Of a DNA stretch of 64,000 bases, positions 1-36,777 are shown piece after piece (the stretch's first letter is position 1; every line of letters starts with the position of its first letter). A program made the translations under genes and the position numbers. The DNA is from Ypsolopha sequella. Taxonomy: Eukaryota; Arthropoda; Insecta; Lepidoptera; Ypsolophidae. The stretch covers positions 62,001 to 126,000 of the forward strand of contig OW203988.1 in assembly GCA_934047225.1 (NCBI GenBank), given 5' to 3'. The notes under the pieces are model-generated. The model was not told the DNA's origin and ran no database searches. It saw only the letters and a program-made list of their open reading frames with translations.

Positions 1-2
1 CA

Positions 3-3000
3 GTGAAAGCTGCTGTCATCGTTTTCGGGGACCACCTGAGGGTAATTCACGACCCACAGTTGGTGACCGAGACCGAGGCAGCGGTGATCCTGGTGGCGGG
101 CAGCCTTAAGCTGGCAGTGCTATCGGTGTACTTCGAGGGGAATCAAGACATCAATGTGAACTTGCAGAGTGTTGAACAAAAATGTAAAAAGCTCAACACT
201 AACAACATCATCATAGGCGGGGACGTAAACGCGTGGAGTCTCTGGTGGGGCAGCAAGCACGACGACCCCAGAGGAGTAGCATACAGCGCCTTCCTCGACG
301 AGATGGAGTTTCATGTTCTCAACAGGGGAGACACCCCCACGTTTGAAACATACAGGGGAGGTAGACTATACAGCAGCATAGTGGATGTTACTGCGTGTAG
401 TCAATCTCTGCTAGGCAGGATTGAAGACTGGAGAGTGGACCGTGATATGACTACGTCAGACCACAATGCCATTGCCTTCGCCTTGCGATTGGACGGAGAG
501 TTAGTGGATCTAGAACCCACTACCACTCGCAAGTTTAACGTCAAGAAGGCAAACTGGCAAGAATTCCACCTCCATGTGAAGTCCGGCTTAGCCGAGAGTA
601 ACATCTCCCTAGACAACATCAACTCCATCTCGAGCGTCGAGGAATTGGATAACATGCTTGCCGCATATACCAACGCTATTCAAAAGGCATGCGACAAAGC
701 AATCCCTAAACTAGGCGCCTACAAAGGCAAGGTTGCACCCCCCTGGTGGTCCAAAGACCTCGCCGACCTGAAAAGAGAGGTAAACCGAAGGAGGCGAAGA
801 ATCCGCAACGCTGCACCCACTAGAAGAGAACACGTGGTTGACGAGTACCTCACCGTCAAGCTGGACTACGAAAAAAAGGCTAGCGAAGCCCAAACCCAAA
901 GCTGGAAAGAGTTCTGCTCGACGCAGGAAAGGGAGAGCATGTGGGATGGGATATACAGAGTAATAAGGCGAACAACTAAAAGGCGAGAAGACCCGCTTCT
1001 GAGGAACGAGAAGGGCGAAACACTCAGCCCCGAGGCATCGGCCGATCTCCTGGCCAGCACGTTCTACCCTGACGACTCTGTATCGACCGATCAACCCTTC
1101 CACAAACATCTCCGAGAGCTGACGGACTCCAACCCCGAGGACATCCAAAATCTGTCGGAAGACGACCCACCGTTCACGGAAGCCGAATTGGATTCAGTCC
1201 TTCATGACATTAATCCAAAAAAGGCACCGGGACCGGACGGGCTTACCGCAGATATCTGTACGAAGGCCATCGAAGCGGGAAGGGAGGTGTTCATGGCTCT
1301 GGCTAACAAATGCCTAGAGCTTGCACACTTTCCTGCTCAGTGGAAAATGGCGCACGTAATAATCCTCGGGAAACAGGGCAAAGATGACTACACACATCCG
1401 AAGTCATATAGACCCATAGGACTTCTGCCAGTTCTCGGAAAAATCGTCGAGAAACTCTTGGTTAACAGGCTGCAATGGCACGTGCAGCCCACGCTTAACC
1501 ACAACCAGTATGGGTTTACGCCACAACGCGGGACCGAGGACGCCCTCTATGACCTTATTAAGCACGTGAGATCAGAACTTGAAAGTAAGAAGATAGTTCT
1601 TATGATCTCGCTGGACATAGAGGGGGCCTTCGACAACGCATGGTGGCCGGCTTTGAAGCACCAACTAGCCACAAGGAAGTGTCCGCAAAACATATATGCG
1701 ATGGTGTGCTCCTATCTACAAGACCGGAAAATAGTGGTCAACTATGCCAGAGCAACAAGCGAGAGGGATACTACAAAGGGTTGCGTCCAAGGATCCATCG
1801 GAGGACCAACCTTTTGGAACATCATACTCGATCCGCTGTTGGCCAAACTGGTACAAGAAGGAGTACATGCGCAAGCTTTTGCGGACGACGTAGTTCTTAC
1901 ATTCACCGGGCACTCGGTCGAAACCATGGAGCAACGAGTCAACTCGACACTGGAGACGATAGTGGAGTGGGGTACTCAGAACAAGCTCAACTTCGCCGCA
2001 CACAAGACCAAGGCGATGTTGATGACCAAAAAGCTGAAGTACGGGGAACCACACCTCTATATGTCAGGGAGTAGACTCGAACTCGTACATGAGATAAAAC
2101 TCCTTGGTCTCGTCATCGACCGAAAGCTCACCTTTAAGGCGCACGTGACCGCAGTCTGTAAAAAAGCTGCGGACATATACAAACATCTAGCGCGCGCAGC
2201 AAAGGTGACGTGGGGCCTGAACGGTGAAATCGTAAGGACGATATACGTAGCGGTTGTCGAGCCGATCGTTCTGTACGCAGCAAGTGTGTGGCACCAATCC
2301 ACAGAACTCCAGATGATCAGAGATCGTCTGGATGCACTGCAAAGAGGATTTGCCCAGAAGATCTGCAAAGCGTACAGAACGGTCTCGCTCTCGTCGGCAC
2401 TAATTCTATCGGGCCTGCTGCCCCTGGACCTTAGAGTACAAGAAGCCGCAGCTCTGTACATGGCCAAACGAGGTTTCAGTACAGACTACATACCACCAGG
2501 AAGGAAAATGGAGCAAAGGATAAGCTACCTTGAGCAGCCACATCCTTCTCAACTCATAACAACAGAGTACGAGCTCCTAGAAAACATGGATTCCGAAACT
2601 CTATCCACCCACTGCATTGCTGGGCCACAAGTGTACACTGACGGCAGCAAAATTGAGGGCAAGGTAGGAGCAGCCCTCACATGGTGGGAGGATGGACAGG
2701 AAACCAGTTTTCACACCTTCAGCCTGGACCCGGCGTGCACTGTCTTCCAATCAGAATTATACGCACTCCATAGGGCGATTGACTTGGCCAAGAACAGCAC
2801 CAGTGACCGAATCAACATCTTGAGTGACTCAAGATCGTCACTAGAACTGCTGGAAAATCCCAAGTCAACACATCCCCTTACCAAGAACATCAAAGAGTGC
2901 GTAGCGGAAATCAGAGCACAGGGTCGGCAGGTGCGGCTCTTCTGGCTCAGGGCGCATGTGGGCACGGCCGGAAACGAAAGAGCAGACGAACTGGCCAAAC

Positions 3001-5783
3001 AAGCGGCCTTGCAGTCAAGCGATGCCCCAGACTACAGTGAAGTTCCCGTGTCACACGTCAAGAGAAAGATCAGAGAGGAAACTATACGCAGATGGCAAGA
3101 CAGGTATAGCTCCTCCAGCACTGGTGCCGTCACGAAGGTTTTCTTCCCGGACGTAAATGTTGCGTTCCGCACAGTCCGTGAAACCAAAATGACGCACCGT
3201 CAAGTGCAAGCCTTGACAGGACACGGGGGCATGGCGGAGTACTTACACCGGTTCAAGCTGAAAAGCAGCCCCGGTTGTGAGTGCGACCCCGACACTAGCG
3301 AGTCAGTATGGCATCTTTTACTGGACTGCCCTCGTTTCGCGGCTGCCCGAATGGAATTAGAGTACCGGCTAAACATCAAGCTGGAAAAAGCCGAACTGCG
3401 GAACATCATCGCAGACAAAGACAGCAGAACGCTCTTCCTTGCATTCGCAGAATCCGTCATACGGATAGCGGCTAAGAGGAACTCGTCCACAGACCTAACC
3501 AACACACCTCACCCTCAACCAGATAACAACACACAAACACCATCGCAGACACAACAGCCAACAACTAGCTGCTCAATGCCAGTGGAGTACCAGCTTCTGA
3601 AGTCCAGTGAGGCAGGTACACCGGGCATAAGACTCAAAGGAGTAGCGACGTTCATGGATGACAGCACCGAGAGACTCGGTATCTGCTTCTGCAGAATATG
3701 GGGAAAGAAAGTTGTCAACATCTCACCTGGCCTTGCTCTCCTCTTAAAGGGGAGCAACTTCAAGGCAACCATAAGGCGGAAAGTATTCGAGGCGCTCGGG
3801 GATGCCACCGTGGCAGGTCATCGCTGCCGAATAGTGCGAACTAAGAACAAAGTTATCGCGCTATTTGTGGCCGGCGACGACGTTTCAGAATTCGCTGAGG
3901 CGAGTTCGATGCTTTCCAGCCTAGCAGCCATCGACGGACCTGCTAAGAAAATCAGCGTGGACGCTATGGTAGTGGCCTACCTTAAAGCCGAAGTGGAAGA
4001 TTACTCGGGGATCATCAGAGCCTCGAGTAAACACGAGATGGTGGTTTACGAAGACAGAGGCCAAAACCTCAGTCATCTGAAACCGTATCGTCTCGGCGAA
4101 TCCTCCACCCCCATCGACAGCTGGGGCCACCCAATAGCGACTCCAGAACTAAGCGGTTCAGAGAGGCTGCAAGAAAAGATCGCAGGTGAGAGACAGCCGC
4201 CCCCTCGCCGAGAGGAGTCGGAGGGAGTGCTGTCAACCATGACCAGAGCAGCGGTCGGTTGTTTCACCAACATCTCGTCTAGAATAAAAAGACACACGGA
4301 CACACTCACACCCCCCAGACCCACAACCTCATCGGGGACAGTCTCAGGAATACCCCGAACAAACCCATCAAAATCCGACAGGGGTCTGGTTGCTCTACCG
4401 GAACTCGTCACACCCACCACTCCATCAGACCACTTGTCCAACGCGCTCCTGGAGTACGTAGCGATGCTCAAAGGCACAGTTGTTTCTAAACAAGAAACAT
4501 GCCGAACGATCCTCCTAGCCTATCGTCGGGGGAACGAGCAATTGCTACAGTCCAAACTCGAGGAGTGCGAAGCGGCGGTGTACAACAACGCTACCCTCCA
4601 AGTGTTGGGGGGAACAATGGCGGGGGAATACATGGCCGCGTACAATGGCACCGGTGGTTTTGTGGAGTTGGATGAAAACGAGTCAAACCGGATGGGGAAA
4701 CCTGTCTTCACCACCTCAGCGGATGACCCCATCGTGGTCGTCGCCAAGTGCACACGGATAATGCTGGAGGACAGAATCCTAAAAATAGCAAATAAACTGC
4801 TAGGGGATTCTGAACCCACCGAAGCCGTAGCACAAATGCTGACACCAGAAATGGAATGGGTAAACGGGGTCCCAGGTTGCGGAAAAACGACCTGGGTAGT
4901 CAACAACTTTGACCGTGAAACGGACCTGGTAACGACGCCCACGCTAGAAGGAGCAAGAGACCTCCGCCAAAAACTGGAGGGCAAGCTCGGCAGAACCGCA
5001 AAATTCAGGGTGCGCACGATGGCCTCATTGCTGGTAAACGGCATTCGCGAGGGCGGGAGCTTCCGTCGGCTTATAGTCGACGAGGCTCTCATGAGCCATT
5101 TTGGAGCCATTGTATTAGCAACCCGGATAGTCGGCGTCAGCAAAATCTTGCTCCTGGGTGACCAAAACCAGGTCCCTTTCATCGACAGAGAAAACCTTTT
5201 CCCGATGAGGTACCTCAGTCCCAGTCTGTTTGGTTGCATAACAAAACAACTGCTGTGCACACATCGAAACCCCATGGACGTCGCATATGCCCTAAGGGAG
5301 ATCTACAGTGGCATATACTCGTCCAAGGCTCAAACACGGTCCTTGACTCTGGAATCCTACGAAGATACGCGACCTCCAAGAAACGAGCATAACACCCTCT
5401 ACCTTGTTCACACCCAGGCCGAAAAACACTTCCTAGAAGGCCTGGGTTACGGCAAGCAACAAGGGTCGCGTATCCACACAATCCACGAGGCTCAGGGACT
5501 CACGTGGGAGAGAGTGGTGATCATAAGAACTGCGAAAGTCACCCAGCAGTTGCACAGCAGCATCCATCACGCAGTCGTGGCGGTGTCAAGGCATACCGGC
5601 AGCTGTGTTTACTATACGGCTTGCCGAAAAAACGATGCCATAGTTCGGCTAATAAGGAACGCCCTGGCAGCTGAGACCGGCACGATCAAAGAGTACAACC
5701 TTAAAATGGCCTGGAGGAACCGAGACACGTCAGTGGCTGACGCCATGCTGAATGGTGGCACGGGCGGCAACCCAGTCGTCTGA
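3..5783 (+). CDS. ORF2 of element A: endonuclease-RT-RNase H-helicase polyprotein (5' partial)
   Basis: The open frame enters from the left edge (first codon GTG is internal) and encodes 1,926 residues ending at TGA. Domains seen: APE-type endonuclease (GGDVNAW with D74, SDHN at 152-155); reverse transcriptase with FADD at 626-629; RNase H with acidic residues D880, E918, D942 and D995 and H985; a CX1CX9HX4C motif at 1092-1109; a Thr/Pro/Gln-rich linker near 1165-1190; an unassigned region; and a superfamily 1 helicase with Walker A GVPGCGKT (K1628), Walker B DE (1693-1694), GDQNQ (1719-1723), HEAQG (1828-1832) and SRH (1862-1864). The first half should nick telomeric DNA and copy element RNA by target-primed reverse transcription. 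The helicase resembles those of tobamovirus-like RNA viruses, and its role in the element is unknown. All catalytic residues listed are present, so the copy may be active. Confidence 0.93.
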   Translation: MKAAVIVFGDHLRVIHDPQLVTETEAAVILVAGSLKLAVLSVYFEGNQDINVNLQSVEQKCKKLNTNNIIIGGDVNAWSLWWGSKHDDPRGVAYSAFLDEMEFHVLNRGDTPTFETYRGGRLYSSIVDVTACSQSLLGRIEDWRVDRDMTTSDHNAIAFALRLDGELVDLEPTTTRKFNVKKANWQEFHLHVKSGLAESNISLDNINSISSVEELDNMLAAYTNAIQKACDKAIPKLGAYKGKVAPPWWSKDLADLKREVNRRRRRIRNAAPTRREHVVDEYLTVKLDYEKKASEAQTQSWKEFCSTQERESMWDGIYRVIRRTTKRREDPLLRNEKGETLSPEASADLLASTFYPDDSVSTDQPFHKHLRELTDSNPEDIQNLSEDDPPFTEAELDSVLHDINPKKAPGPDGLTADICTKAIEAGREVFMALANKCLELAHFPAQWKMAHVIILGKQGKDDYTHPKSYRPIGLLPVLGKIVEKLLVNRLQWHVQPTLNHNQYGFTPQRGTEDALYDLIKHVRSELESKKIVLMISLDIEGAFDNAWWPALKHQLATRKCPQNIYAMVCSYLQDRKIVVNYARATSERDTTKGCVQGSIGGPTFWNIILDPLLAKLVQEGVHAQAFADDVVLTFTGHSVETMEQRVNSTLETIVEWGTQNKLNFAAHKTKAMLMTKKLKYGEPHLYMSGSRLELVHEIKLLGLVIDRKLTFKAHVTAVCKKAADIYKHLARAAKVTWGLNGEIVRTIYVAVVEPIVLYAASVWHQSTELQMIRDRLDALQRGFAQKICKAYRTVSLSSALILSGLLPLDLRVQEAAALYMAKRGFSTDYIPPGRKMEQRISYLEQPHPSQLITTEYELLENMDSETLSTHCIAGPQVYTDGSKIEGKVGAALTWWEDGQETSFHTFSLDPACTVFQSELYALHRAIDLAKNSTSDRINILSDSRSSLELLENPKSTHPLTKNIKECVAEIRAQGRQVRLFWLRAHVGTAGNERADELAKQAALQSSDAPDYSEVPVSHVKRKIREETIRRWQDRYSSSSTGAVTKVFFPDVNVAFRTVRETKMTHRQVQALTGHGGMAEYLHRFKLKSSPGCECDPDTSESVWHLLLDCPRFAAARMELEYRLNIKLEKAELRNIIADKDSRTLFLAFAESVIRIAAKRNSSTDLTNTPHPQPDNNTQTPSQTQQPTTSCSMPVEYQLLKSSEAGTPGIRLKGVATFMDDSTERLGICFCRIWGKKVVNISPGLALLLKGSNFKATIRRKVFEALGDATVAGHRCRIVRTKNKVIALFVAGDDVSEFAEASSMLSSLAAIDGPAKKISVDAMVVAYLKAEVEDYSGIIRASSKHEMVVYEDRGQNLSHLKPYRLGESSTPIDSWGHPIATPELSGSERLQEKIAGERQPPPRREESEGVLSTMTRAAVGCFTNISSRIKRHTDTLTPPRPTTSSGTVSGIPRTNPSKSDRGLVALPELVTPTTPSDHLSNALLEYVAMLKGTVVSKQETCRTILLAYRRGNEQLLQSKLEECEAAVYNNATLQVLGGTMAGEYMAAYNGTGGFVELDENESNRMGKPVFTTSADDPIVVVAKCTRIMLEDRILKIANKLLGDSEPTEAVAQMLTPEMEWVNGVPGCGKTTWVVNNFDRETDLVTTPTLEGARDLRQKLEGKLGRTAKFRVRTMASLLVNGIREGGSFRRLIVDEALMSHFGAIVLATRIVGVSKILLLGDQNQVPFIDRENLFPMRYLSPSLFGCITKQLLCTHRNPMDVAYALREIYSGIYSSKAQTRSLTLESYEDTRPPRNEHNTLYLVHTQAEKHFLEGLGYGKQQGSRIHTIHEAQGLTWERVVIIRTAKVTQQLHSSIHHAVVAVSRHTGSCVYYTACRKNDAIVRLIRNALAAETGTIKEYNLKMAWRNRDTSVADAMLNGGTGGNPVV

Positions 5784-6230
5784 GCCGGCTATCTTCCCCC
5801 CTCTCTCAATAAAAGTGTGTTATTTCCATCTCACCACAGTAATTGTCAGAAATTGTGTAATAATAATATGTAAACCCCCTAAATGTAACAAAACATGTAT
5901 TTTAAATTAGACTGTAATAAAATATGTATAGAATATAGTTTAAAGAATATGTACCGATATAGAATATGTATTTAAAAAAAAAAAAAAAAAAAAAAAAATT
6001 TTAGTTAATATAAATATTTTTAGTATATATATATATATGTAACTAGCTATAAGTAAGGGTCCAATCTAAAAACGAACCACCTAAATTGTATTTCACACCA
6101 AAAATTATTTAATTTTGTTGTAAGGAGCGAAAAGAGGAACAGAACTAAATTGCCAAAATAAACATTGCTAAAAAAGGTATGGACAACGTCCATAGCACTT
6201 GCATTCATTATAAAAAAAAAAAAAAAAAAA
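5784..6230 (+). other. 3' UTR and poly(A) of element A
   Basis: AT-rich noncoding sequence with a poly(A)-signal-like AATAAAA just after the stop, an internal A run of about 27 nt at 5,972-5,998 and a short TA run. The last 190 bases share blocks with the 3' ends of B and I (CTATAAGTAAGGGTC and GTAAGGAGCGAAAAG), followed by a hairpin box. A poly(A) tract at about 6,212-6,230 joins the telomere repeat. Confidence 0.85.
6178..6194 (+). promoter_or_regulatory. 3'-terminal hairpin of element A
   Basis: TATGGAC, a three-base loop AAC, then GTCCATA form a perfect 7-bp stem 18 bases before the poly(A) region. The same place in B, I and H has an ATGG...CCATAG stem with a different loop. A role as the RNA signal recognised by the element's own reverse transcriptase is an inference from position and conservation. 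Confidence 0.6.
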
Positions 6231-6267: not shown

Positions 6268-7810
6268 CAGTACTGCTCGAAACTCCGTACCATACACCTC
6301 GTCGCTCCACACAAAAAATCATTAAAAATAGAAAAAACCTAAATATCAAAGTGAAAGTGTTGTGCAGTGATAGTTAAGTGTACGACTCACCAGGATTTGT
6401 GTTGGCAACAAAATCGGCCAACGGGATCTGACTCTGGAGACCTTCAACTTTGGAGCAGCATGGGCCGGCGCAAGAAGCACCTAAAACAGTGAGTCAAATC
6501 TCAATGCGTAGCTCTTGCCAAGTTCTATCTGGAATTGAAGGAATTTTGGAGATCCGTCGTCAGGAACAGGAGTTATTCACCAACAAAGCTCCCATACAAA
6601 TCGCTCTGACCTAGTTATCTAGGTTACACGTGCCGGGCTTGGCGCGTGTTAGTGACGTACCAGCCAGACAGCCATCGCTGAAGACACCTCTGCCCACCTG
6701 AGGACTTCGTCTAGCTGATGAGGAGCAGTTTCCTGAGGACACTCGGAGACCAGAGGTACACCTAGGGAACTCCTGAACCCCTTGTCCTATTCCCCCCGAG
6801 CTTGGGCTTGTTGATATCGGGACGACCAGTCCTTTCCGCACAGGCCCAAAACATCCCCCTCCCCCAAATTTTTGGACCCCCCCAAATTTGCGCCCCCCCT
6901 CCAAAACTTGGTCACCCGCCGCGTGGATCACATTGATCTCCCCCCACCACCTGACGTACACCGCGCCTACCCCTCTCAGGTTTCACCCCCCCCCATTATC
7001 AAGTGGGGCAAGACGGGCCCCCTGCCAATCGTCGGCTCTTGATTCCTACCCTTCCCCCGACCTCCAACCCAACCATCAATACTCCCCTAACCCAATACTA
7101 ACTCCCCCTACCCCAACCTCGACTCCCCCTCCCCCAACCCAACTCCCCCTTCACAGATCCCGACTCCCCCGTCCCTAATCCCAACTCCCCCTTCCCCAAT
7201 CCCCAAACCCCCCTCCCCTCTCCCTCGACCTCACCCCCGCAAGGGCCCGTCTTGCCCCCCGTGACGCTAGACCCCCCGAGTTTGGGCTCAAACTTCTCGG
7301 GAGAGCAAAAGGAGTACTTTGGCTCTGCCAGAATTTTGATAGCCCTGCCGGTTGGGGTGATAGATCCAAAAAACCTTTTTCTACTCCCCCCACCCTCTTA
7401 CCTCCACACCCCGGCGGCTAACTTTGTCCCCCTTGGCCTGACAACATCGAGCTTGGGCTCAAATTAACCGGAAGAGCCTCAGCTACAAACTGGCTCCCAC
7501 GGATCACTGATTCCTTGCTTCCCTTGGCCATTAGATCGGAAAAACTATCCGCCACTTCTATCTTCCCCCCTTAGAGTGTACCTCACACAAATAGTCGAGC
7601 ACAACAACTACGCAGGCACATCAAGCAGTTTACTCGCACAAATAATCCGTGAAGCAACAAAACCAGCATCCGGAAGCCATCAACATCTACGGCAAGACCC
7701 TTATTTGTAGTTAGTTGGTAATTTTTAGTATAGTTTTAAATATTTATTTTAATTAATATTAAGTTAAGTTGATACTCATCTTATTCTAAGTAAATAAAAT
7801 CCCCATCAAT
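6268..7810 (+). promoter_or_regulatory. 5' UTR of element B
   Basis: Noncoding leader of 1,543 bases. The start CAGT resembles the arthropod initiator, consistent with the internal promoters used by LINEs. It holds three diverged copies of a GAGYTTGGGCT motif (near 6,799, 7,278 and 7,451), a strongly C-rich tract at about 7,050-7,235 with almost no G, and a perfect 16-bp inverted repeat that brackets that tract. Short open frames here look like by-products of the skewed composition. Confidence 0.75.
7005..7258 (+). repeat. Perfect 16-bp inverted repeat enclosing a C-rich tract
   Basis: GGGGCAAGACGGGCCC at 7,005-7,020 is matched by its exact reverse complement at 7,243-7,258. The 222 bases between are dominated by CCCCC and CCCCCT runs. 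In RNA this would be a long GC-rich stem capped by an unstructured C-rich loop; in the complementary cDNA the loop is G-rich and could form quadruplexes. Confidence 0.85.
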
Positions 7811-9838
7811 ATGTCCAACATCCCGAAAAACCCCAGAACCTCAGTCGCCAAGTCATCTACGACTGGGGTGCCCCCTCTGCGGCCACAACGTCCGCTCCGG
7901 GAAAGACTCCTCAGAAATAGCCTCAAGTCCGGTTCCGACGGGGAGTCGGTCTCATCAGCTTCGGAGCGCAGAGTGGCTGCATCGGCCCCTGACACCTTCC
8001 ACGCCGCACTATCACCACCTTGGCCAGTCGACTCGGACGAAGACTCTTTGTCGGAGTCGATTGACCGAAGGGATAGCTTTGTAGCCACCACAAACAGGGA
8101 CCTCAGGAGTGGGGTCCGAATGGACGCTGCGAACAAGTTAGCCACTGACATGCTCCTCAAAGGTAAGGAGGCTCTAGAGGCCGCAAGGAACCTGAAGACG
8201 GAGCTCAAAACCACGGCCATTTTATCCCTGCAGACCCTGTACGAGACGGTGCTGTCTCTTTCCGACTCCAGATCACGGCACAAATCCAACCTGGAGAAGG
8301 AAAGAAGCCGGCACGCTCTGGAACTCGTCAGAGTGGAGCGTGCCCACACTAGACAGCTCACAGAGGTGACCAACAACCTCACCATCAACCTCCAAAAAAC
8401 AATGGAGGAAGTAGGACAGGGTCTCCGGGAAACAAAGGCAGTGAGAGAATGGCTAGCGTATGAAACGCGGGATCCATTCGGACAAATAGGGGAAGCTAGG
8501 GACCGCCTGGCCGCCATCGACCAAGCTGTGCAGGGCTTATCGAACCAGTTAGCCCAGTTGTCAGTTGAAGGGTCCGGTTGTCCGGAGAGCTCTCTCAGAG
8601 GAGATTACAACAAACTCTCCACCAGTATAGAGCAGCTCTCCAGACAACTAGACTCAATGAGGAGAGAAACAACTACTCTCTCCCAAAGGACAACAGAGCT
8701 GCACGAACGGATGGCAATCCGGGCGGATACAACTCCAATCACGGAACCCTCACAGCCACAGACCGACCGCTTAGAGCAGGAGGTAAAGGATGTGAGGGAA
8801 ACGCTGACACAACTCGACACTTACATAAAAAACACATTACGCGAGGCAATCACCACCAACGAAGCGAACCCCACAAATTCGGAACTCACAGAGCACCTCC
8901 AGCCGCTCACCGAAAGGCTTGAGGCAGTCTCTTCGGAGCTCAAAACTATGCGCGAACAAAGAATGCGCACACCCCCGCCGCAACTCAGCTTAGAGACCGA
9001 GATCGCTGAGGCGAGCGGGTGGACCGTAGTGCAGCGGAAGCGCAAGCCGGAGAGACAGCCAGCCACACCGCCTTCACCAAGACCGAACCACAGCATTATC
9101 GTCTCCTCGACGGACGCCACAAAGACCGGGGAAAATGTCATCAAGACGATAATCGGTGCGCTGGACATGGGAAAAACCGGTGCACGGGTGGATCGGGTCA
9201 GAAAGGCGAGAAACCAAAAGGTTGTCCTTACTTGTGGGTCTAAAGAAGACCTGGCCCTGGTAAGGACAAGAGTTAAAAATAACAACACCCTGAAAGTGGA
9301 GGAGCCTCGCGTGAATAATCCCTTAGTAATAGTGAAAAATGTCCTCGCCTATCAGAAGGATGACGAGATTACGCAGCAATTCCGGGCTCAAAATAAACAA
9401 TTGTTCATGGGCCTGGAGAAAGACGACAATCTCGTCAGAGTCAAATACAGAAAGAAAGCGAGAAACCCCCTGCAAGCTCATATAGTTTTCGAGGTGTCGG
9501 CGGCGCTCTATGGGAGGCTGATGGAGGCTAAAAAAGTCTACATCGGCCTCTCACGGAGCCCCGTCGAGGATCAGTCGCCCCTAATCCAGTGCTCCAGGTG
9601 CTGGGGATACGGCCACACAAAAAGCCTCTGCCGGGAGAAGGAGGACCTCTGCGGATTCTGCGGGGGAAATCACTCCTGGGAGAAATGTCGCAGCAGGAAG
9701 GAGAATGCTCTCCCGAAATGCAAAAACTGTGAACAGGCCCACACCCCAACATCAAAAGCGCACGCAGCATACGACAATGAGTGTCCAGAAAAACAAAAGA
9801 TGGACGCCATAGCTCGCTCGCGTGTGAGCTACTGCTAA
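7811..9838 (+). CDS. ORF1 of element B: gag-like RNA-binding protein with CCHC knuckles
   Basis: Encodes 675 residues. The N-terminal 100 residues are Ser/Pro-rich and probably disordered. Residues about 100-390 are helical, charged and coiled-coil-like, and should drive self-assembly. A conserved block follows from about 430 (beginning HSIIVSSTD) and then three zinc knuckles: CX2CX4HX4C at 594-607, CX2CX3HX4C at 614-626, and a third Cys/His cluster near 638-660. This is the layout of R1-group ORF1 proteins, which bind element RNA and help direct the particle to telomeres. The ATG sits at 7,811 just after an AT-rich leader end. The protein ends in ARSRVSYC, a tail shared with the ORF1 proteins of C and E, and ORF2 begins in the +1 frame at the stop codon. 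Confidence 0.93.
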   Translation: MSNIPKNPRTSVAKSSTTGVPPLRPQRPLRERLLRNSLKSGSDGESVSSASERRVAASAPDTFHAALSPPWPVDSDEDSLSESIDRRDSFVATTNRDLRSGVRMDAANKLATDMLLKGKEALEAARNLKTELKTTAILSLQTLYETVLSLSDSRSRHKSNLEKERSRHALELVRVERAHTRQLTEVTNNLTINLQKTMEEVGQGLRETKAVREWLAYETRDPFGQIGEARDRLAAIDQAVQGLSNQLAQLSVEGSGCPESSLRGDYNKLSTSIEQLSRQLDSMRRETTTLSQRTTELHERMAIRADTTPITEPSQPQTDRLEQEVKDVRETLTQLDTYIKNTLREAITTNEANPTNSELTEHLQPLTERLEAVSSELKTMREQRMRTPPPQLSLETEIAEASGWTVVQRKRKPERQPATPPSPRPNHSIIVSSTDATKTGENVIKTIIGALDMGKTGARVDRVRKARNQKVVLTCGSKEDLALVRTRVKNNNTLKVEEPRVNNPLVIVKNVLAYQKDDEITQQFRAQNKQLFMGLEKDDNLVRVKYRKKARNPLQAHIVFEVSAALYGRLMEAKKVYIGLSRSPVEDQSPLIQCSRCWGYGHTKSLCREKEDLCGFCGGNHSWEKCRSRKENALPKCKNCEQAHTPTSKAHAAYDNECPEKQKMDAIARSRVSYC

Positions 9839-9842
9839 GGGC
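9833..9842 (+). promoter_or_regulatory. ORF1/ORF2 junction, possible +1 recoding site
   Basis: TGC TAA GGGC: the ORF1 stop sits inside a 10-base string TGCTRAGGGC that recurs at the same place in C and E. ORF2 is open in the +1 frame from 9,828 onward and contains no ATG before the endonuclease core. The first ATG at 9,999 would delete the QANLQR and QEPY endonuclease motifs. Either ribosomes shift +1 at the stop (reading AAG GGC next) or they restart at a non-AUG codon. Confidence 0.55.
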
Positions 9843-12800
9843 AACGATACCACCCCCACCTCTCCCCCCCCGAGTGCTTCCCATAGCAAACTGCTAGTAA
9901 TTCAGGCTAACCTGCAGCGCAACAAACTGGCGACGCAGGAGCTGATACAGGCAGCCAAGGGACGCGGGGTCTCTATTGCCCTGGTACAGGAACCCTATGT
10001 GGGACGTAGTGGCAATATGAGCACCTACCCCGGCGCACAAGTCATTCAGTGCACCCTTAATCGCACAAAACCAGTGAAAGCTGCTGTCATCATTTTCGGA
10101 GACCAACTGAGGGTAATTCACGACCCACAGTTGGTGACCGAGACTGAGGCAGCGGTGACCCTGGTGGCGGGCAGCCTCAAGCTAGCAGTGCTATCGGTGT
10201 ACTTCGAGGGGGATCAAGACATCAATGTGAACTTGCGGAGTGTTGAACAAAAATGCAAAAAGCTCAACACCAGCAACATTCTCATAGGCGGGGACGTAAA
10301 CGCGTGGAGCCTCTGGTGGGGTAGCAAGCACGACGACCCCAGGGGAATAGCCTACAGCGCCTTCCTCGACGAGATGGAGTTCCATGTTCTCAACAGGGGG
10401 GAAACCCCCACGTTTGAGACATACAGGGGAGGTAGACTATACAGCAGTATAGTGGATGTTACTGCGTGTAGTCAATCTCTGCTAGGCACGATTGAAAACT
10501 GGAGAGTGGACCGTGGTATGACAACGTCAGACCACAATGCCATTACCTTCGCCTTGCGACTGGACAGAGAGTTAGTGGCTCTAGAACCCACTACCACTCG
10601 CAGGTTTAACGTCAAGAAGGCAAACTGGCGAGAATTCCAACTCCACGTGAAGTCTGGCTTAGCCGAGAGTAACATCTCCCTGGACAACATCAACTCCATC
10701 TCGAGCGTCGAGGAACTGGATGAAATGCTTGTCGCATACACCAACGCCATTCAAAAGGCATGCGACAAAGCAATTCCCAAACTAGGCGCCTACAAAGGCA
10801 AGGTAGCACCCCCCTGGTGGTCCAAAGACCTCGCTGATCTGAAAAGAGAGGTTAATCGAAGGAGGCGAAGGATCCGTAATGCTGCACCCACTAGACGGGA
10901 ACACGTGGTTGGAGAGTACCTCACCGCCAAGCTGGACTACGAAAAAAAGGCTAGTGAAGCCCAAACCCAAAGCTGGAAAGAGTTCTGCTCGACGCAGGAA
11001 AAGGAGAGCATGTGGGATGGGATATACAGAGTAATAAGGCGAACAACTAAAAGGCGAGAAGACCCGCTTCTGAGGAACGAGAAGGGCGAGACACTCAGTC
11101 CCGAGGCATCGGCCGATCTCCTGGCCAGCACGTTCTACCCTGACGACTCTGCATTGACCGACCAACCCTTCCACAAACATCTCCGAGAGCTGACGGACTC
11201 CAACCCCAAGGATATCCAAGATCTGTCGGAAGACGACCCACCGTTCACGGAAGCCGAATTGGATTCAGTCCTCCACGACATTAATCCAAAAAAGGCACCG
11301 GGACCGGACGGGCTTACCGCGGACATATGCACGATGGCCATCGAAGCGGGGAGGGAGGTATTCATGGCTCTGGCTAACAAATGCCTAGGGCTTGCATATT
11401 TCCCTACTCAGTGGAAAATGGCGCACGTAATCATCCTCGGGAAACAGGGCAAAGATGACTACACACATCCCAAGTCATACAGACCCATTGGACTTCTGCC
11501 AGTAATCGGGAAAATCGTCGAGAAACTCTTGGTTAATAGGCTGCAATGGCACTTGCAGCCCACACTTAACCACAACCAGTATGGGTTTACGCCACAACGC
11601 GGGACCGAGGACGCCCTCTATGACCTTCTTAAGCACACAAGATCAGAACTTGAAAGTAAAAATATAGTTCTCATGATCTCGCTGGACATAGAGGGAGCCT
11701 TCGATAACGCATGGTGGCCGGCTTTGAAGCACCAACTAGCCACAAGGAAGTGTCCGCGAAACATATACGCGATGGTGTGCTCCTATCTACAAGACCGAAA
11801 AATAGTGGTCAACTATGCCAGAGCAACAAGCGAGAGGGATACTACAAAGGGTTGCGTCCAAGGATCCATCGGAGGACCAGCTTTTTGGAACATCATACTC
11901 GATCCGCTGTTGGCCAAGCTGGCACAGGAAGGAGTACATGCGCAGGCTTTCGCGGACGACGTAGTTCTAACATTCACCGGCCACTCGGTCGAAACCATGG
12001 AGCAACGAGTCAACTCAACACTGGAGACAATAGTGGAGTGGGGTACTCAGAACAAGCTCAACTTTGCCGCACATAAGACCAAGGCGATGTTGATGACTAA
12101 AAAACTGAAGTACGGGGAACCACACCTCTATATGTCAGGAAGTAGACTCGAACTCGTAGACGAGATAAAACTCCTTGGTCTCATCATCGACCGAAAACTC
12201 ACCTTCAAGGCGCACGTGACCGCAGTCTGTAAAAAGGCTGCGGACATATACAAGCACCTAGCGCGCGCAGCAAAGGTGACATGGGGCCTAAACGGTGAAA
12301 TTGTAAGAACGATATACGTAGCGGTTGTCGAGCCGATCGTACTGTACGCAGCAAGTGCATGGTACCAATCCACAGAACTCCAGATGATCAGAGATCGTCT
12401 GGACGCACTGCAAAGAGGATTTGGCCAAAAGATCTGCAAAGCGTACAGAACGGTCTCGCTCTCTTCGGCACTAATTCTATCGGGCCTACTACCCCTGGAC
12501 CTTAGAGTACAAGAAGCCGCAATTCTGTACATGGCCAAACGAGGCATCAGTACAGACTACATACCACCAGGAAGGAAAATGGAGCAAAGGATAAGCTACT
12601 TAGAGCAGCCACATCCTTCTCAACTCATAACAACAGAGTTCGAGCTCCTAGAAAACATGGATTCCGAAACTCTATCCACCCACGGAATTGCTGGGCCGCA
12701 AGTGTACACTGACGGCAGCAAAATTGAGGGCAAGGTTGGAGCAGCCCTCACATGGTGGGAGGACGGACAGGAAACCAGTTTTCACACCTTCAGCCTGGAT

Positions 12801-15800
12801 CCGGCGTGCACTGTCTTCCAATCAGAATTATACGCACTCCACAGGGCGATTGATTTGGCCAAGAACAGCACTAGTGATCAAATTAACATCTTGAGTGACT
12901 CAAGATCGTCACTAGAACTGCTGAGAAACCCCAAAACAACACATCCCCTTACCAGGAACATCAAAGAGTGCGTAGCGGAAATCAGAGCACAGGGTCGGCA
13001 GGTGCGGCTCTTCTGGCTCAGGGCGCATGTGGGCACAGCCGGAAACGAAAGAGCAGACGAACTGGCCAAACAAGCGGCTTTGCAGTCAAGTGATGCCCCA
13101 GACTACAGTGAAGTTCCCGTGTCACACGTCAAAAGAAAGGTCAGAGAGGAGACTGTACGCAGATGGCAAGACAGGTACAGCTCCTCCAGCACTGGTGCCG
13201 TCACGAAGGTATTCTTCCCGGACGTAAATGATGCATTCCGCATAGTCCGAGAAACCAAAATGACGCACCGTCAAGTGCAAGCCTTGACAGGACACGGGGG
13301 TATGGCGGAGTACTTGCATCGGTTCAAGCTGAAAAGCAGCCCCGGTTGTGAGTGCGACCCCGACACTAGTGAGTCAGTATGGCATCTTTTACTAGACTGC
13401 CCTCGTTTCGCGGTTGCCCGAATGGAGTTAGAGTACCGGCTAAACATGAAGCTGGAAAAAGCCGAACTGCGGAACATCCTCGCAGACAAAGACAACAGAA
13501 CGCTCTTCCTTGCATTCGTAGAATCCGTTATACGGACAGCGGCTAAGAGGAACTCGTCCACAGACATCACCGACATACCTCACCCACAAACAAACACCAG
13601 CACACCAACACCAACACCAACACCAACACAGACACAGCAACCGACAACAAGCTGCTCAATGCCAGCGGAGTATCAGCTTCTGAAGTTCAGTGAGGCAGGT
13701 ACTCCGGGCATAAGACTCAAAGGAGTAGCAACGTTCATGGATGACAGCACCGAGAGACTCGGTATCTGCTTTTGCAGAATAAGGGGAAATAAATTTGTCA
13801 CCATCTCACCTGGCCTTGCTCTCCTCCTAAAGGGGAGCAATTTCAAGGCAACCATGAGGCGGAAAGCATTCGAGGCGCTCGGGGACGCCACCGTGGCAGG
13901 TCATCGCTGCCGAATAGTGCGAACCAAGAATAAAATCATCGCGCTATTCGTGGCCGGCGACGACGTTTCAGAATTCGCCCAGGCGAGTTCGATGCTTTCC
14001 AGCCTAGCAGCTATTGACGGACCTGCTAAGAAAATCAGCGTGGATGCTATGGTAGTGGCCTACTTAAAAGCCGAAGTGGAAGATTACTCGGGGATCCTCA
14101 GAGCCTCGAGTAAACACGAGATGGTGGTTTACGAGGACAGAGGCCAAAACCTCAGTTATCTAAGACCGTACCGTCTCGATGAATCTTCCACCCCCACCGA
14201 CAGCTGGGGCTACCCAATAGCAAGTCCAGAACTTAGCGGTTCAGAAAGGCTGCAAGAAAAAATCGCAGGTGAGAGACAGCCGCCCCCTCGCCAAAAGGAG
14301 TCGGAAGGAGTGTTGTCAACCATGACCAGAGCAGCAGTCGGTTGCTTCACGAACATTGCATCACGAATAAAGAAACACTCGGACACACTCACACCCCCCA
14401 GACCCACAACCTCATCAGGGACAGTCTCAGGAATAACCCGAACAAACCCATCAAAATCCTACAGGGGCCTGGTTGCCCGACCGGAACTCGTTACACCCAC
14501 CACTCCATCGGACCACTTGTCCAATGCACTCCTGGAGTACGTAGCGATGCTCAAAGGCACAGTTGTTTCTAAACAAGAAACATGCCGAACCATCCTCCGA
14601 GCCTATCGTCGGGGGAACGAGCAATTGTTACATTCCAAACTCGAGGAGTGCGACGCGGCGGTGTACAACAACGCTACCTTCCAAGTATTGGGGGGAACAA
14701 TGGCGGGGGAGTACATGGCCGCGTTCAATGGCACCAGTGGTTTTGTGGAACTGGATGAAAATGAGTCAAACCGGATGGGGAAACCAGTTTTCACCACCCC
14801 AGTGGATGACCCCATTGTGGTTGTCGCCAAGTGTACACGGATAATGCTGGAGGACAGAATCTTAACAACAGCAAACAAACTGCTAGGGGATTCTGAACCC
14901 ACCGAAGCCGCTGTACAAATGCTGACACCAGAAATGGAATGGGTAAACGGGGTCCCAGGTAGTGGAAAAACAACCTGGGTAGTCAACAACTTTGACAATG
15001 AAACGGACCTGGTAACAACGTCCACCCTAGAAGGAGCGAGAGACCTCCGTCAAAAGCTGGAGGACAAGCTTGGCAGAACTGCAAAATTCAGGGTGCGCAC
15101 GATGGCCTCATTGCTAGTAAAAGGCATTCGCGAGGGCGAGAGCTTCCGTCGGCTTATAGTCGATGAGGCTCTCATGAGCCATTTTGGAGCCATCGTGTTA
15201 GCAACCAGGATAGTCGGCGCCAGCAAAATCTTGCTCCTGGGTGACCAAAACCAGGTCCCTTTCATTGACAGAGAAAACCTCTTCCCGATGAGGTACCTTA
15301 GTCCCAGTATTTTTGGTAGCATAACAAAACAACTGCTGTGCACACACCGAAACCCCATGGACGTAGCATATGCCCTAAGGGAGATCTACAGTGGCATATA
15401 CTCGTCCAAGGCTCAAACACGGTCCTTGACTCTGGAATCCTACGAAGAGACGCGACCTCCAAGAAACGAGCATAACACGCTCTACCTTGTACACACCCAG
15501 GCCGAAAAAGCCTTCCTAGAAGGTCTGGGTTATGGTAAGCAACAAGGGTCGCGTATCCACACAATCCACGAGGCTCAAGGACTTACGTGGGAGAGAGTGG
15601 TGATCATAAGAACTGCGAAAGTCACCCAGCAGTTGCACAGCAGCATCCATCACGCGGTCGTGGCGGTGTCAAGGCATACCGGCAGCTGTGTGTATTACAC
15701 GGCTCGCCGAAAGAACGATGCCATAGTTCGGCTAATAATGAACGCCCTGGCAGCTGAGACCGGCACGATCAAAGAGTATAATTTAAAAATGGCCTGGAGG

Positions 15801-15866
15801 AACCGAGACACGTCAGTGGCTGACGCCATGCTGAGTGGCGGCACGGGCGGCACCCCAGTCGTCTGA
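9837..15866 (+). CDS. ORF2 of element B: endonuclease-RT-RNase H-helicase polyprotein
   Basis: Read from the ORF1 stop in the +1 frame this gives about 2,009 residues. I chose this start because the endonuclease N-terminal motifs QANLQR and QEPY are encoded at about 9,903-9,990, upstream of the first in-frame ATG (9,999). Domains: APE endonuclease (D153 of GGDVNAW, then SDHN near 232); RT with FADD, aspartates 707-708; RNase H with D959; CX1CX9HX4C near 1171-1188; a Thr-Pro repeat linker (about 1240-1265); an unassigned region; helicase with Walker A GVPGSGKT (K1711), DE at 1776-1777, GD near 1803, HEAQG near 1911 and SRH near 1945. The lysine, acidic pair and SRH arginine needed for SF1 ATP hydrolysis are all present. 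The protein is intact and probably functional. Confidence 0.93.
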   Translation, partial: KGNDTTPTSPPPSASHSKLLVIQANLQRNKLATQELIQAAKGRGVSIALVQEPYVGRSGNMSTYPGAQVIQCTLNRTKPVKAAVIIFGDQLRVIHDPQLVTETEAAVTLVAGSLKLAVLSVYFEGDQDINVNLRSVEQKCKKLNTSNILIGGDVNAWSLWWGSKHDDPRGIAYSAFLDEMEFHVLNRGETPTFETYRGGRLYSSIVDVTACSQSLLGTIENWRVDRGMTTSDHNAITFALRLDRELVALEPTTTRRFNVKKANWREFQLHVKSGLAESNISLDNINSISSVEELDEMLVAYTNAIQKACDKAIPKLGAYKGKVAPPWWSKDLADLKREVNRRRRRIRNAAPTRREHVVGEYLTAKLDYEKKASEAQTQSWKEFCSTQEKESMWDGIYRVIRRTTKRREDPLLRNEKGETLSPEASADLLASTFYPDDSALTDQPFHKHLRELTDSNPKDIQDLSEDDPPFTEAELDSVLHDINPKKAPGPDGLTADICTMAIEAGREVFMALANKCLGLAYFPTQWKMAHVIILGKQGKDDYTHPKSYRPIGLLPVIGKIVEKLLVNRLQWHLQPTLNHNQYGFTPQRGTEDALYDLLKHTRSELESKNIVLMISLDIEGAFDNAWWPALKHQLATRKCPRNIYAMVCSYLQDRKIVVNYARATSERDTTKGCVQGSIGGPAFWNIILDPLLAKLAQEGVHAQAFADDVVLTFTGHSVETMEQRVNSTLETIVEWGTQNKLNFAAHKTKAMLMTKKLKYGEPHLYMSGSRLELVDEIKLLGLIIDRKLTFKAHVTAVCKKAADIYKHLARAAKVTWGLNGEIVRTIYVAVVEPIVLYAASAWYQSTELQMIRDRLDALQRGFGQKICKAYRTVSLSSALILSGLLPLDLRVQEAAILYMAKRGISTDYIPPGRKMEQRISYLEQPHPSQLITTEFELLENMDSETLSTHGIAGPQVYTDGSKIEGKVGAALTWWEDGQETSFHTFSLDPACTVFQSELYALHRAIDLAKNSTSDQINILSDSRSSLELLRNPKTTHPLTRNIKECVAEIRAQGRQVRLFWLRAHVGTAGNERADELAKQAALQSSDAPDYSEVPVSHVKRKVREETVRRWQDRYSSSSTGAVTKVFFPDVNDAFRIVRETKMTHRQVQALTGHGGMAEYLHRFKLKSSPGCECDPDTSESVWHLLLDCPRFAVARMELEYRLNMKLEKAELRNILADKDNRTLFLAFVESVIRTAAKRNSSTDITDIPHPQTNTSTPTPTPTPTQTQQPTTSCSMPAEYQLLKFSEAGTPGIRLKGVATFMDDSTERLGICFCRIRGNKFVTISPGLALLLKGSNFKATMRRKAFEALGDATVAGHRCRIVRTKNKIIALFVAGDDVSEFAQASSMLSSLAAIDGPAKKISVDAMVVAYLKAEVEDYSGILRASSKHEMVVYEDRGQNLSYLRPYRLDESSTPTDSWGYPIASPELSGSERLQEKIAGERQPPPRQKESEGVLSTMTRAAVGCFTNIASRIKKHSDTLTPPRPTTSSGTVSGITRTNPSKSYRGLVARPELVTPTTPSDHLSNALLEYVAMLKGTVVSKQETCRTILRAYRRGNEQLLHSKLEECDAAVYNNATFQVLGGTMAGEYMAAFNGTSGFVELDENESNRMGKPVFTTPVDDPIVVVAKCTRIMLEDRILTTANKLLGDSEPTEAAVQMLTPEMEWVNGVPGSGKTTWVVNNFDNETDLVTTSTLEGARDLRQKLEDKLGRTAKFRVRTMASLLVKGIREGESFRRLIVDEALMSHFGAIVLATRIVGASKILLLGDQNQVPFIDRENLFPMRYLSPSIFGSITKQLLCTHRNPMDVAYALREIYSGIYSSKAQTRSLTLESYEETRPPRNEHNTLYLVHTQAEKAFLEGLGYGKQQGSRIHTIHEAQGLTWERVVIIRTAKVTQQLHSSIHHAVVAVSRHTGSCVYYTARRKNDAIVRLIMNALAAETGTIKEYNLKMAWRNRDTSVADAMLSGGTGGTPVV

Positions 15867-16043
15867 GCCGGGTAAAGTTGTGCGTCCCACCTCCTCACAA
15901 TAAAGGTGTTTGTTTGTAGTATTTGTAATTTCATAATTGTAAAATTTTCATATCCATATTAATTAAAATTTTGTATAATTGTAGTAACAACTTATTGTAA
16001 AAATAAAATATGTATCGTGTAGTAGTATAATATTTAATATTCA

Positions 16044-16078
<35 letters not shown>

Positions 16079-16432
16079 TACTAAAAAAAAAAAAAAAAAA
16101 AAAATAAAAATAGTCATCATAATAATAATAATGACATTAACAACTAAAAAAAAAAAAAAAAAAATAAAAAAAAAAAAAAAAATAAAAAAGAATATCATAG
16201 ATTTATTTATATTTGTAAATAGTTATAAGTAAGGGTCAATTTAATCTCAATTGTAACAACTTAATTCACAAAAAATTTTATATCACCTAAAAAGTAATAT
16301 ATTTTATGTAAGGAGCGAAAAGGAGAAGTAAAGAACAAAACAAAACAAATTAAACATGACTAAAAAAGGTATGGCGATCAATGTCCATAGCACTTGCGTT
16401 TTATTAAAATAAAAAAAAAAAATAAAAAAAAA
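15867..16432 (+). other. 3' UTR of element B with terminal hairpin box
   Basis: Noncoding, AT-rich. An AATAAAG lies shortly after the stop. The middle (16,044-16,195) is a string of A runs broken by TA dinucleotides and an ATAATAATA run. This part differs in length from copy I, so it is unstable. Toward the end TATGG (16,370-16,374) pairs with CCATA (16,385-16,389), matching the hairpin of A. The A-rich tail ends at the telomere repeat. Confidence 0.8.
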
Positions 16433-16584
16433 CCTAACCTAACCTAACCTAACCTAACCTAACCTAACCTAACCTAACCTAACCTAACCTAACCTAACCT
16501 AACCTAACCTAACCTAACCTAACCTAACCTAACCTAACCTAACCTAACCTAACCTAACCTAACCTAACCTAACCTAACCTAACC
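16433..16584. repeat. Telomeric (CCTAA)n, about 30 units, between tail-to-tail elements
   Basis: The longest telomere-repeat block in the window, about 152 bases of uninterrupted CCTAA. The poly(A) of plus-strand element B abuts its left end and the poly(T) of minus-strand element F abuts its right end, so two opposite-orientation families meet tail to tail here. Confidence 0.98.
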
Positions 16585-16609
16585 TTTTTTTTTTTTTTTT
16601 TTTTTTTTT

Positions 16610-26427: not shown

Positions 26428-26429
26428 AC

Positions 26430-26520: not shown

Positions 26521-27319
26521 TACTTTTTGTCGTTGGCGGATTTTTTTCTTATATAGTGTAATTTATTGTCCTTGTCTACGTTGTTATTGTCAAAATTTTT
26601 CATATTTTTATCACTCACTTTAGTCGCCCTGCTAGAGTTATAACTTTTATTTTTACACTTTTATTTTACTTTTACATTTTGTTGATGTGTTACTTATTAA
26701 TTTCTTTTGTTTTATCATCTCTTTTGAGTCATTGAATTTAATTTGGATTGGAATTTTATTGTTTTATTTTTTTGATTTAATTTTATATTTTTTTAAATTT
26801 TATTAGAACCTATTGGACTCAGACTTTTGTCACATCAATTTTTACCCAATAAGTTTCTGTGATATTTTTACTCGTAGCATAATTTCCCATTTTTATTATT
26901 GACTTTAATCGCCCTACTAGTTTTATAATTTTATTTACACCTTTTTTTTTTTTTTGATCTTATTTTTGCTGACATTTGAATTATTTGATTTTATTTTTAC
27001 ACTATCTCTTTTGAGTCATAAAAATTTATTAGATCCAAGCTGTTTATTGTTTTATTTTTTTGATTTAATTACATTTTAATTTTATTTTTACTTTAAATTT
27101 ATTGATTCAGACTTTTGTCATATTTTTAAATTAATAAACTGTGATATTTTTACCCCTGGGAAATTATAACTGTGATACTTTGTGATAAAAACTTTTTAGC
27201 TGTCCTTACTTTTTAAAATTTTCTTTTATAATTTCAACTTGTCCCGTACACCTTGCACTCTCAGGTTCTTGACATTGTGTATTTTTATTGTGTGACACTT
27301 CCAAACTTATAGCGGCAAC
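26521..27319 (+). promoter_or_regulatory. 5' UTR of element C
   Basis: About 800 bases, extremely T-rich on the sense strand (many TTTTATTTTT runs), without credible coding frames. It contains a diverged tandem duplication of about 286 bases. It should hold the internal promoter. Its composition is unlike the C-rich leader of B. Confidence 0.7.
26612..27170 (+). repeat. Diverged tandem repeat, two units of about 286 bp, in the 5' UTR of C
   Basis: Four anchors recur in order at nearly constant spacing: CTTTARTCGCCCT at 26,618 and 26,903 (285); ATCTCTTTTGAGTCAT at 26,717 and 27,004 (287); AGACTTTTGTCA at 26,821 and 27,109 (288); CTGTGATATTTTTAC at 26,857 and 27,139 (282). The units have diverged by substitutions and small indels. 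Confidence 0.8.
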
Positions 27320-29347: not shown

Positions 29348-29351
29348 GGGC
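29342..29351 (+). promoter_or_regulatory. ORF1/ORF2 junction of C, possible +1 recoding site
   Basis: TGC TGA GGGC: the same 10-base string as in B with TGA in place of TAA. ORF2 continues in the +1 frame (GAG GGC) with no ATG before the endonuclease motif QANLQR. That the string survives while flanking codons have changed argues for a function. Confidence 0.55.
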
Positions 29352-33077: not shown

Positions 33078-33726
33078 TTATTTGTGTTCTAATTTGTAAA
33101 TCTTTCAATGTTTTAAATTAAGGTTTATTATGTTTTATTGCTCCGTTTATGTTTCATTTTTGTATTTTAATATTAAATTGTAAATAATTAAAATTTCAAT
33201 GTACTAATTTAAGAATTTATAGCTATAAGTAATTAATTTATTAGATTTTAAAATTGATTTATATTGTAAAATGCTATTATTATTATGTTATTATTTGATT
33301 GGTCTAATTGTTTTAAATGTAATAAAGGGTGGGATCCTCTAGTCAGTTAGTATTAAGGAAAATGTATTAGATAATAAGAAAAAAAAAAAAAAAAAAAGTG
33401 AGAAAAGGAAAACACATGAAAGATGAAATAAGAAAAAAAAAAAAAAAGTAACAATAAAAAGATAAAAAAAAAAAAAAAAAAAAAACCAAGAAAGAAAAAA
33501 AAAAAAAAAAAAAAAGATAGAACATGCATGAGAGTTTATTTTTACCCCTAGACTTAGTTGATATTCTAGAAAATAAGTAGCTTTTTATGACGGAGGATCC
33601 CCTTTTTCCCTTTCCCCCTCTTATCCCTGTAAAATTCAGGGGTCACGTATAAAAATGTATTAGTTGAAAAAGACACGAAAATTAATATTCGTGGTTTTGC
33701 GTGACCTCATCAAATGATGGGGTTTT

Positions 33727-33760
<34 letters not shown>
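33078..33760 (+). other. 3' UTR of element C
   Basis: AT-rich, with A runs at about 33,380-33,515 and no detectable remnant of the helicase module. Near the end GGTCACG (33,641-33,647) pairs with CGTGACC (33,700-33,706), and inside that lies CACGAA/TTCGTG (33,674-33,679 with 33,688-33,693), giving a nested stem just before poly(A). Confidence 0.8.
33641..33706 (+). promoter_or_regulatory. Nested 3'-terminal stem of element C
   Basis: A 7-bp outer stem GGTCACG/CGTGACC encloses a 6-bp inner stem CACGAA/TTCGTG. It sits about 22 bases before poly(A), the position expected of a reverse-transcriptase recognition structure. Different in sequence from the ATGG/CCAT hairpin of the helicase families. 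Confidence 0.5.

Positions 33761-36727: not shown

Positions 36728-36763
<36 letters not shown>
36095..36763 (+). other. 3' UTR of element H with terminal hairpins
   Basis: AT-rich noncoding sequence with A runs near 36,435-36,460. At the end, GGGC CTCA GCCC (36,697-36,708) and ATGG AA CCAT (36,709-36,718) form two adjacent small hairpins, followed by AG and the poly(A) at 36,732-36,763. The second hairpin matches the box in A, B and I. Confidence 0.75.
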
Positions 36764-36776: not shown

Positions 36777-36777
36777 G

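Follow-up and report, generated by a model that had tools for sequence, protein, structure and literature searches.

Long interspersed nuclear elements (LINEs) of the R1-clade TRAS type are known from Lepidoptera in a form, SF1H-TRAS, whose second open reading frame (ORF2) ends in a viral superfamily 1 (SF1) helicase preceded by a spacer of over 300 amino acids (PMC4686597, PMC5563155). The fusion class was reported in 2015 (Lazareva et al., PMC4686597), as a first-pass annotation of the DNA analyzed here had noted, and the spacer is described there as similar to nothing; a 2017 paper already names invertebrate virga-like viruses as relatives of the helicase (PMC5563155). The target site of TRAS1 lies between the T and the A of TTAGG (PMC2868851). 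According to a 2019 account (PMC6338049, citing Kondo 2017 and Geisler 2018), helicase-bearing TRAS elements are not found near TTAGG repeats, and this absence from telomeres had served as an argument for a specialised antiviral role. Here we describe helicase-bearing TRAS elements from Ypsolopha sequella that do lie in telomeric repeats and whose spacer matches a viral replicase. The window, that is, the whole stretch of 64,000 nucleotides analyzed, covers 62–126 kb of the 30.9 Mb contig OW203988.1 (assembly GCA_934047225.1; genome 867 Mb, 151 contigs).

Copy B of the element (Table 1) carries the fusion in a single ORF2 of 2009 codons with no internal stop. Pfam matches follow in the order Exo_endo_phos_2 (3.2e-17), RVT_1 (9.6e-38), RNase_H (4.3e-13) and Viral_helicase1 (PF01443; 2e-31, residues 1703–1955), and at such E-values chance is set aside as an explanation. 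The continuous frame described in the first-pass annotation, running from endonuclease through reverse transcriptase (RT), RNase H, CCHC motif and Thr-Pro linker to SF1 helicase, is confirmed by these data, and all the motifs that it had listed can be located in the translation: FADD at residue 705, GVPGSGKT at 1705, VDEA at 1775, GDQNQ at 1802, HEAQG at 1911 and SRH at 1945, with the CCHC motif starting at 1171 and TPTPTPT at 1256. An imperfect C-rich tandem array of 21/41-base units (7068–7218; G-rich on the minus strand) occupies the presumed 5′ untranslated region (UTR) of this copy.

The endonuclease of copy B scores 196.8 bits against TRAS1 of Bombyx (1wdu) versus 29.5 bits against R1Bm, and in copies A, B, C, D and E of the window the 3′ A-tract directly joins AACCT repeats. 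Because of this TRAS1-like endonuclease and these junctions the element is of TRAS type and sits in a telomeric array. A search of the genome with PF01443 gave 277 candidates, and the 150 scored matches listed are a lower bound; by hand count, made twice, 74 of these 150 are unbroken frames of 2005–2026 amino acids. On the 25 contigs longer than 16 Mb, 75 of the 82 listed matches are no more than 150 kb from a contig end (a zone comprising 1.1% of the sequence), and 74 of the 75 share one orientation relative to that end. The other seven lie in the interior; of the remaining listed matches, 67 are on smaller contigs and one is on a contig outside the size comparison. Flanks on the 3′ side were examined for 60 of the 150 listed matches, a non-random draw: in 41 an A-tract of at least 8 is joined to CCTAACCT, and six more show a single repeat unit, in some cases followed directly by another TRAS sequence. 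None of 3000 shuffled flanks (mononucleotide control) meets the junction criterion. In flanks L030, L036, L073, L084 and L085 one or two AACCT units separate the helicase copy from the next TRAS-like sequence, a head-to-tail nesting recognized by eye. The telomeric setting claimed at first pass is thus upheld by both the A-tract/AACCT junctions and the clustering at contig ends, and the statement that helicase-bearing TRAS elements avoid telomeric repeats fails in this genome. Among open-licence PMC papers we found no report of helicase-bearing TRAS elements in telomeres, recent telomere-to-telomere assembly papers being outside the scope of that search.

Between Thr-Pro linker and helicase lies sequence that is conserved and has a viral counterpart, both of which the first-pass account of the linker had missed. 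LINE profiles built from up to 53 sequences were made for the new domain (linkA), the variable stretch behind it (linkB), the helicase N-terminal domain (NTD) and the helicase core, with E values scaled to a nominal one million sequences. When proteins were searched with the helicase region, LINE relatives and P0055 came up; P0055 is a protein of 3147 amino acids with Pfam methyltransferase, FtsJ, SF1 helicase and RNA-dependent RNA polymerase domains, which from this domain set we label virga-like. P0055 is matched in order by linkA (69–70 bits, E about 1e-17), linkB (47 bits, 2e-10), NTD (74–75 bits, 2e-19) and core (422 bits, 6e-125); the best scores among 4000 shuffled viral proteins were 6.9, 14.3 and 5.3 bits for linkA, linkB and NTD, respectively. 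The linkA alignment with P0055 retains the LINE motifs SPGLA, SVD-M and Y-DR. Judged by these profile matches, the published lack of similarity fails: the spacer matches viral replicase sequence. Identity between P0055 and the LINEs is about 26–30% in the linker and 45% in the helicase, and because these values are too low, a chimeric assembly of P0055 with a known LINE is unlikely. In IMG/VR viral contigs, 19 pattern matches to linkA and 72 to the linker–helicase alignment included no relatives.

RT and helicase Pfam domains occur together in 53 of the 57 proteins recovered by the protein search, and 52 of the 57 span linker to helicase. P0056, a Spodoptera exigua database protein of 1108 amino acids, has linkA-like and helicase sequence and no RT Pfam domain; it may represent a truncated copy or else a gene model of its own.

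The assignment of the helicase to the RNA-virus type, as opposed to UPF1 or Pif1, had been proposed beforehand and is borne out by profile and structure comparison. The profile search aimed at a cellular placement gave none, and a cellular origin was rejected, neither profile nor structure favoring UPF1/Pif1 over viral SF1. The tobamovirus likeness gives way to the invertebrate virga-like viruses of the 2017 paper (PMC5563155) and, in the present data, to P0055. A rebuilt helicase tree of 55 sequences, from which copy E, two partial rows, five LINE rows that were near-duplicates and three viral rows lying very far off had been removed, unites P0055 with all LINE helicases against three other viral proteins (support 100/100). 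Capture by a LINE from a P0055-like virus is the simplest reading.

Comparison of copies A and B indicates that the putative captured part is maintained. The ratio of nonsynonymous to synonymous change (dN/dS) in the LINE part is 0.24 for the endonuclease, 0.10 (0.05–0.16) for RT and 0.14 for RNase H; in the module it is 0.21 (0.09–0.49) for linkA, 0.15 for linkB, 0.20 for NTD and 0.16 (0.07–0.26) for the core. For all domains the 95% limits are below 1, the upper limits within the module being 0.26–0.51. The Thr-Pro bin (residues 1226–1274), with 76% identity the lowest among the stretches compared, has a dN/dS of 0.35 and is the only bin whose upper limit (1.02) reaches 1. Between B and D the synonymous sites are so close to saturation that this comparison is not reliable, and that of B with E offers too few changes. 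The module is under purifying selection about as strong as that on other parts of ORF2.

Copy C is without the module: a Pfam search of its ORF2 found no helicase, the frame stops at the point where that of B enters the Thr-Pro joint, and no match to the module turned up in the 3′ UTR of C. P0048 distorted the first RT tree; the second leaves it out, as well as incomplete and near-duplicate rows. In a quick endonuclease-to-RNase H tree of 42 rows copy C adjoins the helicase-bearing P0036 (Shimodaira–Hasegawa-like approximate likelihood ratio test, 99), and a topology placing all helicase-bearing rows apart from C, a test named after the first tree, was rejected (approximately unbiased test, p 0.0004). 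Lineage C thus seems to have lost the module.

In hepeviruses and rubiviruses an X (macro) domain lies upstream of the SF1 helicase. The predicted fold of linkA, a domain with a mean pairwise identity of 52% across 53 rows, is of high confidence and looks macrodomain-like. Macrodomain homology by sequence was tried and rejected, as PDB and Pfam profiles and hhalign were all negative; fold resemblance alone is claimed. Against profiles of 9 and 47 bacterial and phage macrodomains (the latter being 38 of 57 loci plus the 9, with no viral X domains) hhalign gave probabilities of 0.1–0.4%, with a positive control at 100%, and Pfam matches of linkA up to E 10 include no Macro family. NAAN and GGG, the ADP-ribose-site motifs of macrodomains, are absent from the linkA alignment, whereas NAAN is present in nine of nine rows of the macrodomain alignment. 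Our searches of open-licence PMC papers brought up no report of a macrodomain in a LINE. Only tentatively, and at somewhat below even confidence, we suggest that a LINE lineage inserting into telomeres across Lepidoptera carries a positive-strand RNA-virus replicase cassette in which an X domain of macrodomain type and the SF1 helicase were captured jointly, selection having since maintained both in cis with RT.

The junction of the two reading frames bears on how the fused protein is made. ORF2 of copy B is +1 relative to ORF1, whose TAA stop occupies 9836–9838; it has no ATG near 9837, the first in-frame ATG lying inside the endonuclease. Twenty regions were fetched, and in all 12 copies with the junction recovered its site and frame are identical. 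Copies C and F are arranged like B, with TGA in place of TAA in C. Because most recovered copies are closely related, independent cases are few: the B type, the L016/L028 type, F and C. We infer that ORF2 is made via a +1 frameshift or a coupled re-entry from ORF1.

As to the other elements in the window, the four fused copies announced at first pass reduce to three, A, B and E, that carry RT and helicase in a single frame; D has only linker and helicase, F is frame-broken (it is without residues about 296–698 and without the end) and C is helicase-less. Copies D and E, although truncated at different element positions, both start CTGGATGTTA where telomere repeats end (33791–33800 and 36775–36784), which may be chance or a shared junction. 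Between the plus-strand TRAS copies sits a minus-strand pair, one fuller and one shorter, with 99.9% identity over 3673 bases, labeled SART-like from architecture and 30% RT identity to B; the first mechanical start of their ORF2 overlaps the end of ORF1 by 4 bases, and the first ATG is two codons further. Near-perfect minisatellites with 26-, 66- and 58-base units (56101–56262, 60818–61148 and 62104–62339) mark the subtelomeric part of the window.

Table 1. Coordinates of features in the 64,000-nucleotide window.
Feature	Position	Strand	Remarks
Copy B, entire extent, between two AACCT tracts	6268..16430	+	5′ limit approximate
Copy B ORF1, 675 aa, ends ...RVSYC-TAA	7811..9838	+	Open reading frame; Pfam search gave no match
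ORF1/ORF2 junction, TACTGC-TAA-GGGC	9830..9842	+	ORF2 frame +1
Copy B ORF2 frame, 2009 codons: endonuclease-RT-RNase H-CCHC-linker-new domain-SF1 helicase	9837..15866	+	Translation, Pfam
Endonuclease domain, TRAS1 type	9894..10544	+	Pfam; 1wdu E 3e-57, R1Bm E 4.5e-6
Reverse transcriptase, FADD at 11949-11960	11457..12179	+	Pfam, translation
RNase H	12702..13079	+	Pfam
CCHC motif (Cys1171, Cys1173, His1183, Cys1188)	13347..13400	+	From translation
Thr-Pro-rich joint, residues 1240-1274; boundary of LINE part and putative captured part	13554..13658	+	Translation, A–B comparison
linkA, new conserved domain, residues 1275-1440; P0055 match; macrodomain-like predicted fold	13659..14156	+	
linkB, variable stretch, residues 1441-1580; part matched in P0055	14157..14576	+	
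Helicase NTD, residues 1581-1690	14577..14906	+	
SF1 helicase core, residues 1691-2009	14907..15863	+	
Copy B 3′ UTR and A-tract	15867..16430	+	
(AACCT)31 telomeric repeat at copy B 3′ end	16431..16585	+	
Copy A, cut by window start; ORF 3-5783 holds RT and helicase	1..6228	+	A-tract joins AACCT at 6229-6267
Two SART-like elements	16586-22798 and 22869-26468	-	T-tract joins AACCT repeats
Copy C, TRAS-type without module; ORF2 29331-33077; 3′ end in AACCT	26521..33758	+	5′ limit approximate
Copy D, 5′-truncated, linkA to helicase only, 766 codons open; 3′ end in AACCT	33792..36763	+	
Copy E, 5′-truncated, 98.5% identity to B, fused frame 36829-42183; 3′ end in AACCT	36776..42772	+	
Copy F, diverged, frame-broken, helicase sequence still present	42800..48100	+	Limits approximate

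On balance, and by a narrow measure of confidence, we favor the explanation that the element is a TRAS-clade LINE of (TTAGG)n whose ORF2 C-terminus is a captured segment of a positive-strand RNA-virus replicase, with the helicase acting in cis. Its insertion into the telomeric (TTAGG)n repeats would proceed through target-primed reverse transcription. A replicase segment of ∼735 residues, comprising the new domain and a complete SF1 helicase, would have been captured at the C-terminus of ORF2, probably in the direction from virus to LINE. ORF2 would be reached from ORF1 by +1 frameshifting, delivering the helicase one-to-one with RT to the element RNA, where it would remodel, in cis, the RNA or the RNA:cDNA duplex of its own ribonucleoprotein during retrotransposition. 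The module would be helpful and non-essential, given that lineage C, from which it has apparently been lost, is nonetheless found in telomere repeats.

Several points weigh against this explanation. The putative donor is represented by a single protein, because among the seven viral helicase proteins examined linkA was matched in P0055 and in none of the six others. The position of P0055 outside all 51 LINE rows receives support of only 76/40 in the 55-sequence tree, and in the first tree (64 rows) four viral rows, P0055 among them, fell within a fork of LINEs that was not resolved (85/86); the transfer may have run in reverse, from LINE to virus. The loss in lineage C comes from a quick tree with one-sided sampling, one-sided because all other TRAS rows were found via the helicase. 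The macrodomain identity of linkA is without sequence support. Thirteen of the 60 flanks fail both junction criteria: two (L030 and L051) are telomeric on a looser reading, in five the 3′ end is followed by other DNA, and six have no recognisable 3′ end. Both the action in cis and the duplex as substrate are conjectural.

A different role for the helicase, put forward by Lazareva, Morozov and colleagues, is that it is kept as a suppressor of silencing by small RNAs (small interfering or PIWI-interacting RNA), shielding the element from host defence. We regard this as rather unlikely, if worth serious attention: the helicase of a Plutella LINE has weak suppressor/complementation activity in plants, TRAS1 is cited as controlled by PIWI-interacting RNA (both PMC4686597), and purifying selection on the module fits a suppressor too. 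Tests of suppression in insect cells, however, are given in that paper as future work, and a catalytic role in cis is favored over a stoichiometric suppressor because RT and helicase form one protein (they remain so in 53 of 57 relatives), because the module is selected and yet apparently dispensable in C, and because ORF2 would be scarce if it is a frameshift product. A guess of the first-pass annotation is that G-rich or otherwise structured DNA at the telomeric target is opened up by the helicase, allowing insertion. The element does insert into telomere repeats, and viral SF1 helicases are stated to be capable of unwinding DNA as well as RNA:DNA (PMC5563155), but the insertion of copy C into these repeats with no helicase makes this improbable. 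Co-option of the module for host antiviral defence, with helicase-bearing TRAS elements as specialised non-telomeric copies, has been published (PMC6338049) and is, on present data, very hard to sustain: the lack of such elements near TTAGG repeats, on which it is built, does not hold for Y. sequella, the main text of one of the two papers cited for it (Geisler 2018, PMC5803895) has no occurrence of ‘telomer’, and the many intact copies among the matches listed look like a replicating element. That the extra domains are functionless passive hitchhikers, as absence of the module from copy C in the same telomeric array might suggest, is scarcely credible and already contradicted by dN/dS of 0.15–0.21 over linkA, linkB, NTD and core (upper limits as above), by the retained SF1 motifs and by the conservation of linkA.

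Returning to the favored explanation, were the whole ∼735-residue segment viral, the functional unit would be a two-domain cassette rather than a helicase alone; on the tentative reading given above for the cassette, a retrotransposon would be operating, at the ends of chromosomes, a portion of the replication machinery of an RNA virus. The data also point to a selected, virus-matching domain in an element with a part in shaping the chromosome ends of insects.

In copy B a viral SF1 helicase, complete, follows RNase H and the CCHC motif and closes ORF2, which places this copy with the SF1H-TRAS elements of Lepidoptera. It differs from them as described (PMC4686597, PMC5563155) in that its spacer matches a viral replicase and holds a selected domain with a confident predicted fold, in that copies lie in telomeric repeats, and in that the ORF1/ORF2 junction is now described. 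With TRAS1 and TRAS3 of Bombyx it shares the TRAS1-type endonuclease, insertion into (TTAGG)n and a 3′ A-tract joined to AACCT, whereas B. mori is reported to have no helicase-bearing LINE of SF1H-TRAS type (PMC4686597). The Jockey LINEs with a viral SF1 helicase in ORF1 provide a parallel among insect LINEs, but belong to another clade, carry the helicase in the other reading frame and are considered of independent origin (PMC5563155). Among viral proteins, the tobamovirus helicase (ToMV, tomato mosaic virus; 3vkw/3wry) is 22% identical, the closest viral sequence found being P0055 at 45% over the helicase; from the viral X/macrodomain linkA is set apart by its lack of sequence-profile similarity to (bacterial and phage) macrodomains and of NAAN and GGG. 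The fusion of LINE and helicase was already known, whereas the viral counterpart of the extra domain and the location in telomeres depart from what had been published.

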